Positions 2,020 to 23,050 of a stretch of 62,926 bases of DNA are shown here, piece after piece. Positions within the stretch are counted from its first letter, which is position 1. Each line of letters starts with the position of its first letter. The notes below the pieces were generated by a model. It saw only the letters and a list, made by a program, of their open reading frames with translations. It did not search any database and had not been told where the DNA came from. This stretch comes from a virus: the IMG/VR virus record IMGVR_UViG_3300045008_000062, positions 1-62,926 of that record. The stretch is one strand, 5' to 3'. The translations under genes and the position numbers were made by a program.

Positions 2020-2372
2020 GCGAGAGCGCAGCAGAAGTGATCGCGGCATCACTCAACACCGAGATCGTCGGACACTCCGGCGACTACAACGGCGGAAGAC
2101 TGACCTACAGCCGTTCGTTGGATCTAGCCATCCAGGGCCTCGACGCTCTCCGGGAAGCAGGCTGGGCCGTCGAGAAGCTGCCCGAACCTGACCATCGCCA
2201 AGATGCCACGGAGGACGAGAACGGGCGCATCGACTACGAATCGGGAGACGTGTCTGTTTTCGATGACGGCGAGATCCACGTGTGGGGTGCTGTCTGGGAG
2301 CCTGCGGCGGTGCGGCACTTCGGGCTGTCACTCCTCGCCGCTGCTGCGGTTTCCCAGGACGGTGAGAGATGA
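2016..2372 (+). CDS. Hypothetical protein, paralog of the gene at 54727
   Basis: The ATG at 2016 overlaps the previous stop; an in-frame ATG at 2004 is possible. The product is 118 aa. The segment LREAGWAVEKLPEPD matches LEEAGYVIVHLPEPD in the protein at 54727-55074, and both continue with an acidic loop and a W-containing strand. The two are therefore duplicated members of one small phage family whose role is unknown. Confidence 0.7.
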   Translation: MSESAAEVIAASLNTEIVGHSGDYNGGRLTYSRSLDLAIQGLDALREAGWAVEKLPEPDHRQDATEDENGRIDYESGDVSVFDDGEIHVWGAVWEPAAVRHFGLSLLAAAAVSQDGER

Positions 2373-2506
2373 GCGCCGACGTGTTCCCGGACTGTCTGTG
2401 GGCTTCTGAACGTCGTTTAGCGTCTCTCGGCGGTGATGTGTCGGGGGAGGGTGTTGTGGACGCTCTGGGGCCTTCTGGGGCGGCGGGAACGGACGGTGTG
2501 GCGTGA
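2369..2506 (+). CDS. 45-aa hypothetical protein
   Basis: A coupled ATG at 2369 opens a 45-codon frame (MSADVFPDCLWASERRLASL...) rich in Gly and Ala at its end. It exactly fills the gap between two better genes with 4-nt overlaps, which is the main support. Confidence 0.45.
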   Translation: MSADVFPDCLWASERRLASLGGDVSGEGVVDALGPSGAAGTDGVA

Positions 2507-2721
2507 TCCTCGACGGCGAAGCCTTGAACGTGATGGCTGGCTGCATCAGCCGCGGCGAGAAACCCACCATTGACACGCAGGTGATCGAGACCGACGTGTG
2601 GTGCGAGGAATGCCGCATGGATTCCGCCGCGCGGGCCGCCGTCACGGTCGTCACCCCCGAAGCGGTGTACGAGGCAGGCACCCTCATCTACTGCGTACTG
2701 CACGACAGGAGAGACGAATGA
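2503..2721 (+). CDS. 72-aa hypothetical protein with CxxC
   Basis: The GTG start overlaps the preceding TGA. The product carries WCEECRMDSAARAAVTVVTP, one CxxC plus a later Cys-Val-Leu-His, a plausible single metal site. It couples to a membrane protein downstream. Unknown function. Confidence 0.55.
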   Translation: MILDGEALNVMAGCISRGEKPTIDTQVIETDVWCEECRMDSAARAAVTVVTPEAVYEAGTLIYCVLHDRRDE

Positions 2722-2939
2722 TCACCCGCATCCGAGATTGGATCGACCGCTACGAACATGGCCCTCTTGTCGCATCCTTGGTGATCATCCTTACGCCCGT
2801 GCTGGTCGCCATGCAGATCGTGTACACGCAGGAGGGCGCCCCGTGGTGGTTAGTTCCGGTGGCGCTGCTGGGTTTCCTGGTTCTCTCGGGGTGGATCTGT
2901 CTTGTCGTTGCTGCTGTCACAAGGTGGTTCGGGCGGTGA
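2718..2939 (+). CDS. Small two-helix membrane protein
   Basis: The 73 aa protein starts at an ATGA overlap. Two hydrophobic segments are evident: LVASLVIILTPVLVAMQIV (about residues 17-35) and WWLVPVALLGFLVLSGWICL (about 43-62). The termini are charged. It is probably a cytoplasmic-membrane protein. No role is visible from context; it is far from the lysis genes. Confidence 0.65.
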   Translation: MITRIRDWIDRYEHGPLVASLVIILTPVLVAMQIVYTQEGAPWWLVPVALLGFLVLSGWICLVVAAVTRWFGR

Positions 2940-3100
2940 CTGCTGTGGAGGAGCCCGACGAGATCTCAGCCCTCGTGGACTGGCAGCTCTCTAAGCGTGG
3001 TGTTTTGGACACGGTGATGTGGACGTGCCACAAGTGCCGGTGTAGGTGGCAGTCGGGTCCGATGTCCTGCCCTGAATGCGGAGAAAGGAAACGCAATTAG
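2936..3100 (+). CDS. Zinc-ribbon-like 54-aa protein
   Basis: The GTG start couples to the membrane protein gene. The C-terminal half reads WTCHKCRCRWQSGPMSCPEC, a CxxC...CxxC zinc ribbon. An 84-nt gap follows before the next gene, so this may be the end of a translational unit. A nucleic-acid-binding role is an inference. Confidence 0.6.
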   Translation: MTAVEEPDEISALVDWQLSKRGVLDTVMWTCHKCRCRWQSGPMSCPECGERKRN

Positions 3101-3184
3101 CCGCGATTTAGTGGCCGTCTATAGCGTGTAATGCGTTGTCTACCACGGTATTATGTATGGAACACCAAATGCAGGGAGCCCGGA

Positions 3185-3499
3185 ATGAGCAGGAACGTAT
3201 GCAAGAACTGCGGCTCCACTGTGGAACAAGGCCCCTACGGTAGATGGCTCCATGCTGGAACTCGTGAACCGCGGTGTCTAGTTTACGCGGAGCCGTTCGC
3301 CCCCTTCGGAACTCCCATCGAGTTCCCTGGTGACGCAGAGGAAGGTTGCGGCTGCCATCACTGCAATCCGCAATATCACGGGATGCGGATGTTCCTGTGT
3401 TCGCAGTGCGGTAATAAGCGTTGCCCAAAAGCGACTTTCCACGGCCTGGAATGCAGCGGCAGTAACGCGCCCGGCCAAGCGGGGAGCCGGTACGCATGA
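3185..3499 (+). CDS. Cys-rich hypothetical protein with multiple CxxC motifs
   Basis: ATG at 3185 is chosen because a GGGAG sequence lies upstream. The 104 aa product has VCKNCGST, EGCGCHHC and LCSQCGNKRC, enough ligands for two zinc sites. It opens a new unit after an 84-nt gap (3101-3184) that holds AT-rich sequence but no convincing -35/-10 pair. Function unknown. Confidence 0.65.
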   Translation: MSRNVCKNCGSTVEQGPYGRWLHAGTREPRCLVYAEPFAPFGTPIEFPGDAEEGCGCHHCNPQYHGMRMFLCSQCGNKRCPKATFHGLECSGSNAPGQAGSRYA

Positions 3500-3687
3500 T
3501 TGGACTTGACGAGTGTGAGTGGTGTGGCTGCGATCTCGATGACTGCCTGAGTGATCCATGCAGGGATCGTGCTGAAGCGCACGCCGAGGAGTACTACACC
3601 CCGTCAGGTTTGGACGAGTTCGCGCCCGAGACAACCCGTAACCATTCTCCTGCTCGTCCGTTGGCTCTATTCGAGGAGGAGCAGTGA
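3496..3687 (+). CDS. 63-aa hypothetical protein
   Basis: The ATGA overlap sets the start. The N-terminus MIGLDECEWCGCDLDDC is acidic and Cys-rich. The C-terminus ends FEEEQ because the GAGGAGGAGCAG that encodes it doubles as the ribosome binding site for the next gene. Confidence 0.5.
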   Translation: MIGLDECEWCGCDLDDCLSDPCRDRAEAHAEEYYTPSGLDEFAPETTRNHSPARPLALFEEEQ

Positions 3688-12455: not shown

Positions 12456-12797
12456 ATGCCACGCCAACGCCTGAGGGTGTGCAACCAGCCAGGCTGCCCC
12501 CACCTCCAACGAGGCCCACGATGCCCGGATCATGAGCGGGAACACGAACGGTATCGCTGGGAAACAACACCCACGAAGGTCACCAGGGAAGCCGACAAGG
12601 CCAGACGCAAAGCCGCAGTCGACCAACACCGCGCCCGCTTCGGCGACTGGTGCCCCGGCTACAACAGAGACCCACACCCCACCGAAGACCTCACCGCCGA
12701 CCACATCGAAGAGATCGCCCACGGCGGCGACCCACACGGCCCACTCCAAGTCCTCTGCCGATCATGCAACGGACGCAAAGCCAGAACTACTCGATGA
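12456..12797 (+). CDS. HNH endonuclease next to the terminase
   Basis: The 113 aa protein has N-terminal CNQPGCPHLQRGPRCPDH (a zinc knuckle) and a C-terminal HNH core LTADHIEEIAHGGDPHGPLQ plus VLCRSCNGRKA. Small HNH proteins encoded beside terminase genes are often part of the packaging machinery and help cleave the genome ends. Here a leftward lipoprotein gene and 185 nt separate it from the small terminase. Its 3' end overlaps that leftward gene by 11 nt. Confidence 0.85.
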   Translation: MPRQRLRVCNQPGCPHLQRGPRCPDHEREHERYRWETTPTKVTREADKARRKAAVDQHRARFGDWCPGYNRDPHPTEDLTADHIEEIAHGGDPHGPLQVLCRSCNGRKARTTR

Positions 12798-20462: not shown

Positions 20463-20827
20463 TGGCGAACCCTCTGTTCCGGTTCGGCGTTTCGGATGCG
20501 GAGTTAGCGCAAGCTATCGCCACCTCCAGCGAGGTTGACGCCGGGCTGAAGGAAGAGGCCCAGAAAGTCGCCGACTACTGGGTTGATCAGTCCCCTGTCG
20601 ATGAAGGGGACTACGCGGCGTCGGTGAAGGTGTTGAGTGTCCGTCACGGTAAAGCGGTGGTGGGGACGAAGCATTGGAAAGCCCACATGATCGAGTTCGG
20701 CACAAAAGCCGACCCGCAGGACTCCGAATCCCCATTCGGCCCTGATACTCCCACTCCGGCGTTTGCGGTGGGGCAGAGGGTTGCTGAGCATTTCGGCGGG
20801 GATCTGACCGGGGATGGCCTTGAATGA
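20462..20827 (+). CDS. HK97 gp10-like tail-completion protein
   Basis: The 121 aa product has LKEEAQKVADYWVDQSPVDE...GDYAASVKVLSVRHGKAVVG, then HWKAHMIEFGT. The last segment is the diagnostic of the gp10-like neck family. It sits between stopper and tail terminator. The ATG overlaps the preceding stop. Confidence 0.85.
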   Translation: MANPLFRFGVSDAELAQAIATSSEVDAGLKEEAQKVADYWVDQSPVDEGDYAASVKVLSVRHGKAVVGTKHWKAHMIEFGTKADPQDSESPFGPDTPTPAFAVGQRVAEHFGGDLTGDGLE

Positions 20828-21261
20828 GCGCACCCCTCTTCGGTGAGGACGCCCCCGACGCTGAGGATTTCGTGGTGTCGTGGCTGCAACCTCTGCTGCG
20901 GTCGGGTGTGGAGAGGCGTCAAAGCGACCCGTGGCCGTTCGCTCTGGTGCAGCGCATCTCAGGTCTGGACAACCCGGAAGCCGGGCTGGATGACCCGGTG
21001 ATACAGATCGACATTCTCCACAAGGTGAAATCCGGTACTGTTCCTGTCTCGGTTGCGGGTAAGCAGTGGGCCAACGACGTTCACCGACGAATGACACTGC
21101 TGGGGTTGACATACCCTGACGTGACTTTGTCTGACGGCAGTGTCGCCGGGATTGATTACCTTACGGTGTTGATTCGCCCGCGCCGCGAACCATTCGGCGA
21201 CGAAACCGTCGCCCGCTATGTGGCCCGCTACAAGCTGGGCCTCTCTTACGTCGCAGCCTAA
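20824..21261 (+). CDS. Tail terminator
   Basis: The 145 aa product has the features of actinophage terminators: FVVSWLQPLLRSGVERRQSD, DDPVIQIDILHKVKSG and a helical middle. It caps the tail tube. Its stop lies 4 nt inside the convergent HNH gene, so an inserted leftward cassette now sits between it and the major tail gene. Confidence 0.82.
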   Translation: MSAPLFGEDAPDAEDFVVSWLQPLLRSGVERRQSDPWPFALVQRISGLDNPEAGLDDPVIQIDILHKVKSGTVPVSVAGKQWANDVHRRMTLLGLTYPDVTLSDGSVAGIDYLTVLIRPRREPFGDETVARYVARYKLGLSYVAA

Positions 21262-22010
21262 GACGCCAGTGGTGTGGTGGGGCTGAATGGCCAGGTAGCG
21301 CATTTGCTGGTGTTGCAGCGCGCGCAGGCTGGACGAAGATTCGAAAGGCAGTCCATGCCCCCCTTCGCCAGGGGTTTGACGTGGTCCATATGAACAGTGC
21401 CCTCAATGGGGCGCCTGCAAATCCAGCACTGGCCGCCCCAGTACGCGATCTTTTCTTTCACCTGCGAAGGGGTGTAAGGAATGCGCTGTGCGCCACGCTT
21501 GCGTGCGCGCCAACGCGCGACGTACGCGCTGTTATGGGTCGGGTTCTCAGCACGAAACTTGCGCCGACTCTCCCGCCTCTTCTCACGCCACAAGTCTGGG
21601 TTGAGGCTCCGGCGCTTGGCATCTCGAAGGCGACGCCTCTCGCGATCTGCATCTGTTTGAACCCTGTTTGGGTACCTGTATTTGGGGCGGTTGCGCTCGT
21701 ACCAGTCGCTTTCGGAGTAATAGACCTTGGCCTTGGAGTTTCGGCAGGGCTTGCAATAGCAGTTGTATCCATCCGTCCGAGTTCTGGAACGCCCGAAGTC
21801 GTTGAGCGGCTTCGCCATCTTGCAGCAACTGCAGATCTTCAGCCCATCTAAAGTCGGCTCGAAGTTACGAGCAGCGCGCGCCTTCGCTTGGGATCGAGTT
21901 CGTGCGTTCTTGCAGGGCTTGCAGTAGTAGCAGAGTCCATCCTTCTTCTTCCCGTCCCGATGAAAGTCGGTGTACGGCTTCAGTTCACCGCAGTCGCGAC
22001 AGGTCTTCAT
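21258..22010 (-). CDS. HNH endonuclease with two N-terminal zinc ribbons, leftward
   Basis: The 250 aa protein has two CxxC...CxxC repeats (CRDCGELKPYTDFHRDGKKK..., CSCCKMAKPLNDFGRSR...), each followed by CKPC. A long basic middle follows, then a C-terminal HNH: QCWICRRPIEGTVHMDHVKP, LAKGGMDCLSNLRPACARC. Its ATG overlaps the stop of the RHH gene upstream. It runs against the structural operon, which fits a mobile insertion. Confidence 0.9.
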   Translation of the reverse strand: MKTCRDCGELKPYTDFHRDGKKKDGLCYYCKPCKNARTRSQAKARAARNFEPTLDGLKICSCCKMAKPLNDFGRSRTRTDGYNCYCKPCRNSKAKVYYSESDWYERNRPKYRYPNRVQTDADRERRRLRDAKRRSLNPDLWREKRRESRRKFRAENPTHNSAYVARWRARKRGAQRIPYTPSQVKEKIAYWGGQCWICRRPIEGTVHMDHVKPLAKGGMDCLSNLRPACARCNTSKCATWPFSPTTPLAS

Positions 22011-22162
22011 TGGCCTGCGTAGGCCTGCCTGATCGCCTCAATGACGAGGTCACGCTTACTCCGCCCGGTCTCATAGGCCAAGCGGTGTAGGAGTTCGGCG
22101 ACATCCAGCGGCAACTTGATCGCAAAATTCGTCGGCGGCCGACGGCCAGAAAAAGACGACAT
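22007..22162 (-). CDS. Ribbon-helix-helix (CopG/Arc-type) DNA-binding protein, leftward
   Basis: The 51 aa product starts MSSFSGRRPPTNFAIKLPLD. The strand NFAIKLPLD and two helices (VAELLHRLAYETG, SKRDLVIEAIRQAY) are a textbook RHH fold, as in CopG/Arc or antitoxins. Its gene is followed at once by the HNH gene and preceded by a perfect 8-bp inverted repeat that overlaps its ATG. This suggests the pair is autoregulated. A -10-like TAAACT lies 7 nt before the ATG on this strand. Confidence 0.8.
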   Translation of the reverse strand: MSSFSGRRPPTNFAIKLPLDVAELLHRLAYETGRSKRDLVIEAIRQAYAGQ

Positions 22163-22180
22163 GTAACCAAGTTTACATGT
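22159..22180 (-). promoter_or_regulatory. Inverted repeat, probable operator of the RHH-HNH pair
   Basis: ACATGTAA (22159-22166) and TTACATGT (22173-22180) are perfectly inverted around 6 bp. On the minus strand it contains TAAACT (22170-22175), a -10-like box 7 nt from the RHH ATG. A further half site AACATGT is at 22192-22198. An RHH dimer bound here would block the promoter. Confidence 0.7.
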
Positions 22181-22228
22181 CGAAACCGCCAAACATGTGG
22201 ATTGCTAACCCAATACAAGGAGAACTAA

Positions 22229-23050
22229 ATGACGCAGCCCGCAGTCGGCACGACAATGTCAGCCGGCGGATTCCTCGACATTCATCGCCCCTTCATTGAG
22301 CGCGGCGGCGCGCAGGCGGTGTTCATCCGCGATAACCGTGGTTCTGCCACGGACATGTCGCCGTTCACCGCGTTGGGTGCGGTGAACTGGTCGCCGTTCG
22401 CGCAGGACGGTCAGCCCCGCGACGACCTGCTGATCCGTAAGCGGGTCAGCGGCAAGTTCGAGTATGTGGCCGCCGCTAACGACGGGTGGTTCCGTGTCGG
22501 CGCCCAGACCGATGATGGTGGCGCTGAGCGTGAACCCGACACCACCTCCGACGACATGATGGTGTTGCAGTCGAAGTTCCCGGTCGACTCGGAGACCACG
22601 GAGAAGGCGTACACGGTTCGGTTTGTGGCGGCGGAGACGGCGGACCCGCTGATCCACCGCCTCGAAGATGAACTCCCCCTGTGCGACAGCGCGGGAACAC
22701 CTTTGGTGCCGTTGCCGGGTGAGCCGGACTACTTCTCCGGCCCCACCGTCGATTTGGAGGCCACCGCCGAATACCAGATCGGCCTGCTGTACGCGCGCCG
22801 CACGTCGGGCGGGTTCATCTACCGTTTCGAGGGTTACCCGGCGTGCAAGCTGGACTCGCAGGCGTCGAAGCAGCGGTCCAAGACCGACCCGGACACCGCG
22901 GACCTCACCTACAAGGTGCTGCCGAACGAGTACTTCATGCGCCCCGATCCGCTGTGGGACGGGGTCGGTAACCCGCCTCTGGTTCCCGGCTATTTCGGTG
23001 TGTGGTTCGGCGGACCCGGCTGGGACGCCCAGTACTCCGAAGGTTCGTAA
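22229..23050 (+). CDS. Major tail protein
   Basis: The 273 aa product follows AAGGAGAA. It begins AVGTTMSAGGFLDIHRPFIE and has the beta-rich fold of mycobacteriophage tail-tube proteins, with an insertion around residues 80-100. A strong hairpin (23058-23117) after the stop would raise its transcript relative to the downstream genes. Place and length (273 aa) fit the tail tube subunit. Confidence 0.88.
   Translation: MTQPAVGTTMSAGGFLDIHRPFIERGGAQAVFIRDNRGSATDMSPFTALGAVNWSPFAQDGQPRDDLLIRKRVSGKFEYVAAANDGWFRVGAQTDDGGAEREPDTTSDDMMVLQSKFPVDSETTEKAYTVRFVAAETADPLIHRLEDELPLCDSAGTPLVPLPGEPDYFSGPTVDLEATAEYQIGLLYARRTSGGFIYRFEGYPACKLDSQASKQRSKTDPDTADLTYKVLPNEYFMRPDPLWDGVGNPPLVPGYFGVWFGGPGWDAQYSEGS

Follow-up and report, generated by a model that had tools for sequence, protein, structure and literature searches.

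Organization of the locus and comparison with relatives

The 62,926-nucleotide DNA analyzed here in its entirety, referred to as the window, has the gene set of a temperate siphovirus, which includes capsid, tape measure, terminase, endolysin, and integrase genes as well as a gene for a methyltransferase. The presence of the integrase gene makes it likely that this phage has a lysogenic state, in which repression matters. The tail genes are related to those of Cheoctovirus mycobacteriophages, and the major tail gene matches 390 phage records at roughly 75%. Two overlapping leftward genes, encoding a ribbon-helix-helix (RHH) protein and an HNH nuclease, are located between the rightward tail terminator and major tail protein genes (Table 1); this arrangement had been described in an earlier note on this DNA, and the open reading frames, their coordinates and their overlap were confirmed. 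The RHH stop codon, TGA, overlaps the HNH start codon as ATGA, and the HNH stop codon in turn overlaps the stop codon of the tail terminator gene. An alternative RHH start, TTG at 22192, would extend the protein to 61 amino acids.

Table 1. Features of the RHH-HNH locus and flanking tail genes (positions in the window).
Feature	Coordinates	Strand	Basis or remarks
Tail terminator / head-tail adaptor gene	20824..21261	+	phrog_813, E 3.5e-40; phrog_123 (connector/tail terminator)
Endonuclease-VII-like HNH nuclease, 250 aa	21258..22010	-	phrog_1035, E 8e-38; Pfam HNH, 38.1 bits vs 21.4 cut-off
Insertion extent relative to L004	21262..22228		967 bp vs about 100 bp; one blastn block stops at 21261, the next starts at 22229
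RHH (CopG/Arc-type) protein, 51 aa, ATG at 22162	22007..22162	-	Pfam RHH_1, 21.1 bits vs 20.5 cut-off
Inverted repeat CGACATGTAA-N6-TTACATGTCG, proposed RHH operator over -10 and start codon	22157..22182		sequence
TAAACT, predicted leaderless-promoter -10 box	22170..22175	-	sole TANNNT in leftward leader
Third ACATGT box, -35 position, 17 bp before -10 box	22193..22198		spacings of 16 and 18 between boxes
Major tail protein gene	22229..23050	+	phrog_476, E 1e-62

The RHH-HNH pair is an insertion into the tail operon. Eighty viral contigs were kept for their major tail protein. In 79 of them the gap between the two tail genes measures about 98-133 bp and the pair is missing, which refutes the possibility, raised in the earlier note, that it is a fixed part of the tail operon in all relatives; an insertion that is absent from matching genomes is what characterizes free-standing homing endonucleases. 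The remaining contig, of 8.3 kb, is 100% identical to the window and carries the cassette. In the relative L004, whose major tail protein is 88% identical, the tail site is empty, and the nucleotide similarity to the window ends at the tail terminator stop codon and restarts at the major tail start. The junctions of the insertion are found at the ends of the flanking genes. The gap in relatives includes a rightward terminator-like hairpin, with a 13-bp stem in L011 (L011:3912-3941) and a shorter one in L004 (L004:3916-3930). This ancestral hairpin was sought in the window and is absent; therefore the cassette replaced the gap and did not split it. The loss of flanking bases on acquisition of an HNH gene has been described for Omega gp51 (PMC3706429). 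Base composition was uninformative as to a recent foreign origin (G+C content of 58% versus 61%). An apparent 2.4-kb gap in L046 was rejected as an artefact of a late locus start, with the tail terminator match running to 1547 and the major tail gene beginning at 1659.

Properties and relatives of the two proteins

Two zinc ribbons form the N-terminal part of the nuclease; a basic linker joins them to the HNH domain, which is C-terminal (residues 195-236). Residues C195, C198, D209, H210, N224, C229, C232, and N233 are invariant in comparison with four aligned relatives. The metal and catalytic residues of the HNH domain are therefore intact and, together with the N-terminal zinc ribbon, correspond to the features of Endonuclease-VII-like, zinc-ribbon HNH proteins. 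The protein matches only HNH/EndoVII families, which settle its class as far as sequence families can; a comparison with known toxin-antitoxin toxin and nuclease families gave no match, and PADLOC returned weak HNH-domain matches only and no defence system beyond this generic domain. It is the stronger of the two Pfam HNH matches in the window, the other one (12675-12782, plus strand, 21.4 bits) being located near the terminase gene and probably representing a packaging-associated HNH.

Relatives of the nuclease are dispersed among phages, prophages and plasmids, of which many are actinobacterial, and in all this diversity the zinc modules vary while the HNH domain behind them is constant. It belongs to an established family of free-standing HNH genes with a wide, scattered distribution in phages. 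Among named phages, Baka and Optimus have the closest relative, an HNH located upstream of lysin A (36% over 74% of the query) that has been treated as a free-standing HNH insertion (PMC3706429). In L110, L114, L124, L129 and L170 a family member is located immediately 5' of a different type of major tail gene (phrog_2491), at about 2200-3500 of each locus, and in L153 one is found directly 3' of a major tail gene; L156 looks like L153 by its upstream ORF. The tail-gene neighbourhood thus appears to recur for this family, with the gene in antisense orientation in the window phage. The relative present in the Rhodococcus plasmid NZ_CP027560.1 (L089) is also antisense to its neighbours and is not accompanied by an RHH gene. 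Its leader (L089:2330-2534) has inverted repeats of the GGGGTC...GACCCC and CGACGG...CCGTC types, perhaps an RNA-based control in place of the RHH protein. Rhodococcus phage Reynauld gp5 (L091:2001-2390) matches both zinc ribbons and has no HNH domain, which makes it a separate form of the portion of the nuclease presumed to bind DNA.

The RHH protein is the sole Pfam RHH_1 match in the window, and both this match and its layout place it among the RHH (CopG/Arc) DNA-binding proteins, with DNA binding as a prediction. In the AlphaFold model two helices of 14 residues each (residues 19-32 and 36-49) are formed, and the strand of the ribbon-helix-helix is not formed in the monomer. Foldseek gave CopG bound to DNA (1b01), CopG (2cpg) and Arc (1par) as best matches, with probabilities up to 0.98 but, the chain being so short, E > 0.1; of the solved folds CopG is the closest. 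A search of the PDB by sequence gave no meaningful match. The 51-amino acid chain ends two residues after helix 2, and as a consequence the half of an antitoxin that binds the toxin is absent. A RelB-like antitoxin model matched at positions 1-31 of 70, with 24.9 bits versus a cut-off of 50 bits. The comparison to an antitoxin made in the earlier note thus holds for transcription only and fails for toxin binding, as the chain stops at helix 2. According to the structural model, the protein is most likely built like CopG or Arc, as a pure repressor.

The inverted repeat and the predicted leftward promoter

A repeat with the structure ACATGTAA-N6-TTACATGT had been noted at 22159-22180. It is exact and covers the RHH start codon and the -10 box, and its perfect arms are in fact 10 bp long, two bases more per arm than first described (CGACATGTAA-CCAAGT-TTACATGTCG). 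Even with up to 3 mismatches allowed, the shorter version has no other copy in the window, and the exact repeat was found in one other viral contig, the identical one. Each half of the 10-bp-arm repeat contains the palindromic hexamer ACATGT, of which a third copy is located upstream (Table 1).

The TAAACT sequence is located 7 nucleotides before the RHH ATG and is centred about 10 bp before its A. In mapped mycobacterial promoters a TANNNT is centred 7-12 bp upstream of the start and a -35 consensus is lacking; leaderless promoters are a class enriched in operons for small regulators or toxins (PMC3898074). Since the sole TANNNT of the leader is placed as in mycobacterial leaderless promoters, the leftward promoter is, most simply, leaderless. 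A scan of the region for sigma-70 -35/-10 pairs gave no match, in line with the lack of a -35 in mycobacterial promoters. The ACATGT boxes would then be positioned at about -35, at the edge of the -10, and over the +1 of the predicted promoter, a geometry that fits autorepression by the RHH protein.

In simulated 88-bp leaders a perfect repeat with 10-bp arms and a spacer of at most 10 occurred in 0.035%, and three copies of ACATGT occurred in none of 20,000. Repeats of equal quality were found in the window as 7 matches at 4 places including 22157-22182. As like repeats exist at three other places, the case for an operator rests on the position of this one.

Control of the nuclease and alternative readings

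The RHH profile was run on about 120 loci around HNH relatives, the adjacent upstream ORFs were read, and Pfam RHH_1 was used to search 80 viral records that contain HNH relatives. An RHH gene directly upstream of a family HNH gene was found, among about 80 nuclease loci, in the identical contig and in L169 only. The latter includes a tandem (L169:1611-2800) of a 62-amino acid RHH-like protein (15.1 bits, below the cut-off), a 122-amino acid protein with an HNH-like N-terminus and an RHH C-terminus (30.1 bits), and then the family HNH; the RHH of this locus is possibly a targeting domain. Searches with the RHH protein identified one relative in viral contigs, L086, which is about 50% identical, lacks an adjacent HNH gene and has no inverted repeat around its start. 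The same searches gave nothing significant in phages and plasmids, and 53 pattern matches in genome contigs of which none was confirmed. No repressor-HNH or RHH-homing pair was found in the open-access literature, subscription papers being outside the search. Conservation could not be used as evidence for the operator or the pairing because both are represented by a single lineage, i.e., two identical contigs. The earlier note had proposed a self-regulated homing unit: the insertion, the mobile kind of the HNH gene, and the operator geometry are in agreement with this proposal. On present data the RHH-HNH pair does not appear to be a recurring unit and would be either rare or young.

Several known systems resemble parts of this arrangement. 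In plasmid pMV158, CopG represses the promoter common to copG and the endonuclease gene repB, and when CopG is missing in a new host a burst takes place that establishes the plasmid (PMC5717011). As in the window pair, a tiny RHH repressor comes first, a DNA-cleaving enzyme comes second, and the operator is located on the single promoter; in the window pair the gene order and overlap are seen in the sequence, and an operator-like sequence lies on the predicted promoter. The two systems differ in that RepB initiates replication and does not belong to the mobile HNH nucleases, CopG acts jointly with an antisense RNA, and the window pair is found in a phage tail cluster, with repression as a prediction. 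In phage T4 most free-standing homing nucleases are promoter-less passengers; I-TevI is autorepressed by binding to its own promoter, the proven case, in which the nuclease itself is the repressor, and I-TevII and I-TevIII have been proposed to behave likewise (PMC2988022). The circuit proposed here would also keep a homing nuclease low through an operator overlapping its own promoter, but I-TevI is its own repressor and is intron-borne, whereas a separate RHH repressor is proposed for the free-standing HNH of the window. The T4 segD gene codes for a free-standing endonuclease antisense between structural genes 23 and 24 (PMC2988022), as does the window cassette between tail genes, but it has no recognised promoter or repressor and belongs to a different nuclease class. 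The cluster J genes Baka gp50 and Optimus gp51, the closest named relatives, are also insertions next to structural or lysis genes; unlike the window HNH they are co-directional with their neighbours and have no annotated RHH partner.

We consider it probable that the cassette is a mobile HNH gene inserted in antisense orientation, with a leaderless promoter and a dedicated RHH autorepressor acting with a logic like that of CopG-RepB, a model built from the sequence of one phage lineage. A free-standing HNH gene would have entered the tail operon of a temperate phage, bringing its own promoter, the RHH and HNH genes would be co-transcribed leftward, and translation of the nuclease would be coupled to that of the RHH protein via the ATGA overlap. 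RHH dimers may occupy the three ACATGT boxes (+1, -10 and -35), blocking RNA polymerase and repressing both their own gene and that of the nuclease. Where the phage is already in the cell, nuclease levels would be held down by the RHH protein, and the DNA of phage and host would be spared. Some HNH genes of an F1 phage inhibit host growth if overexpressed (PMC11075535), which is a reason to keep an HNH gene repressed. Upon entry of the genome into an RHH-free cell, a short burst of nuclease would take place until RHH shut-off, and this burst could cut the empty tail locus of a co-infecting relative and lead to the cassette being copied across.

A gene order with a small RHH gene first, an overlap and a palindromic operator is also typical of type II toxin-antitoxin systems such as RelBE, VapBC and ParDE. 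The HNH protein could then be a DNA-damaging toxin that the RHH protein neutralizes by contact while repressing the operon. Leaderless mRNAs are over-represented among toxin-antitoxin pairs in Mycobacterium tuberculosis (PMC3898074), the RHH protein matches the first 31 of the 70 positions of a RelB-like model, and the toxicity of some overexpressed phage HNH genes (PMC11075535) would be in agreement. However, the chain ends two residues past helix 2, without the toxin-binding, neutralizing half and short of the 50-bit cut-off, the HNH protein matches no toxin-antitoxin nuclease family and gives only weak HNH-domain matches in PADLOC, and nucleases homologous to it are maintained elsewhere with no antitoxin gene beside them. 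Neutralization through contact between the two proteins is therefore unlikely, as judged from the model and the families. It is rather unlikely as well that the RHH gene is incidental, that is, that it regulates some other target such as tail transcription or a host gene and is by chance the neighbour of an ordinary mobile HNH gene. The relative in L086 does exist without an HNH gene, the distance from the operator to the start of the major tail gene is only 46 bp, and the insertion removed the rightward terminator-like hairpin of the relatives, so that rightward expression may differ; but the two genes share orientation and the ATGA overlap, and the operator covers the -10 box and start codon of the RHH gene itself, with no second copy in the window even when up to 3 mismatches are allowed.

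A role of the repeat as RNA is very unlikely. On the minus strand the 10-bp stem followed by TCTTTTTCTG has the appearance of a leftward terminator-like hairpin, a feature absent from the earlier note, and includes the RHH start codon, so that it could be a terminator or attenuator hiding this start; on the plus strand a stem forms in the major tail leader, where relatives have stem-loops that it could replace. Against these possibilities, terminator-like sites are expected 1.7 times in the region by chance, the folds are unremarkable (z of -1.4 and -1.9), a leaderless transcript would not include the hairpin, and the third ACATGT is outside the stem. The cassette could also be a moron, with a promoter active in lysogens, an HNH protein that cuts related phages as a prophage defence or superinfection nuclease, and the RHH protein setting the dose. 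We find this highly improbable: the antisense cassette with its own promoter in the late operon of a temperate phage, the presence of genes for an integrase and a methyltransferase, and the exclusion of insert-free relatives that cutting would produce as a by-product of homing are all compatible with it, but there is no defence-system match beyond the generic HNH domain, and autorepression predicts low expression in lysogens.

Returning to the autorepressed homing cassette, free-standing mobile HNH genes were already known, and what looks new is the apparent dedicated RHH autorepressor. It is conceivable, although we put this forward tentatively and with more doubt than the model itself, that the repressor acts as a sensor of the presence of the element, such that cutting would occur only in cells without the element, the lysogen would be spared, and homing would be limited to new entry. 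Control of free-standing homing nucleases is poorly understood, and the RHH-HNH pair offers a simple two-gene system for studying the timing of homing. If the model is correct, free-standing nuclease genes can carry a plasmid-style dose control by means of a separate repressor that travels with them, which would make it easier to understand the tolerance of an antisense cassette within an essential late operon of a temperate phage.
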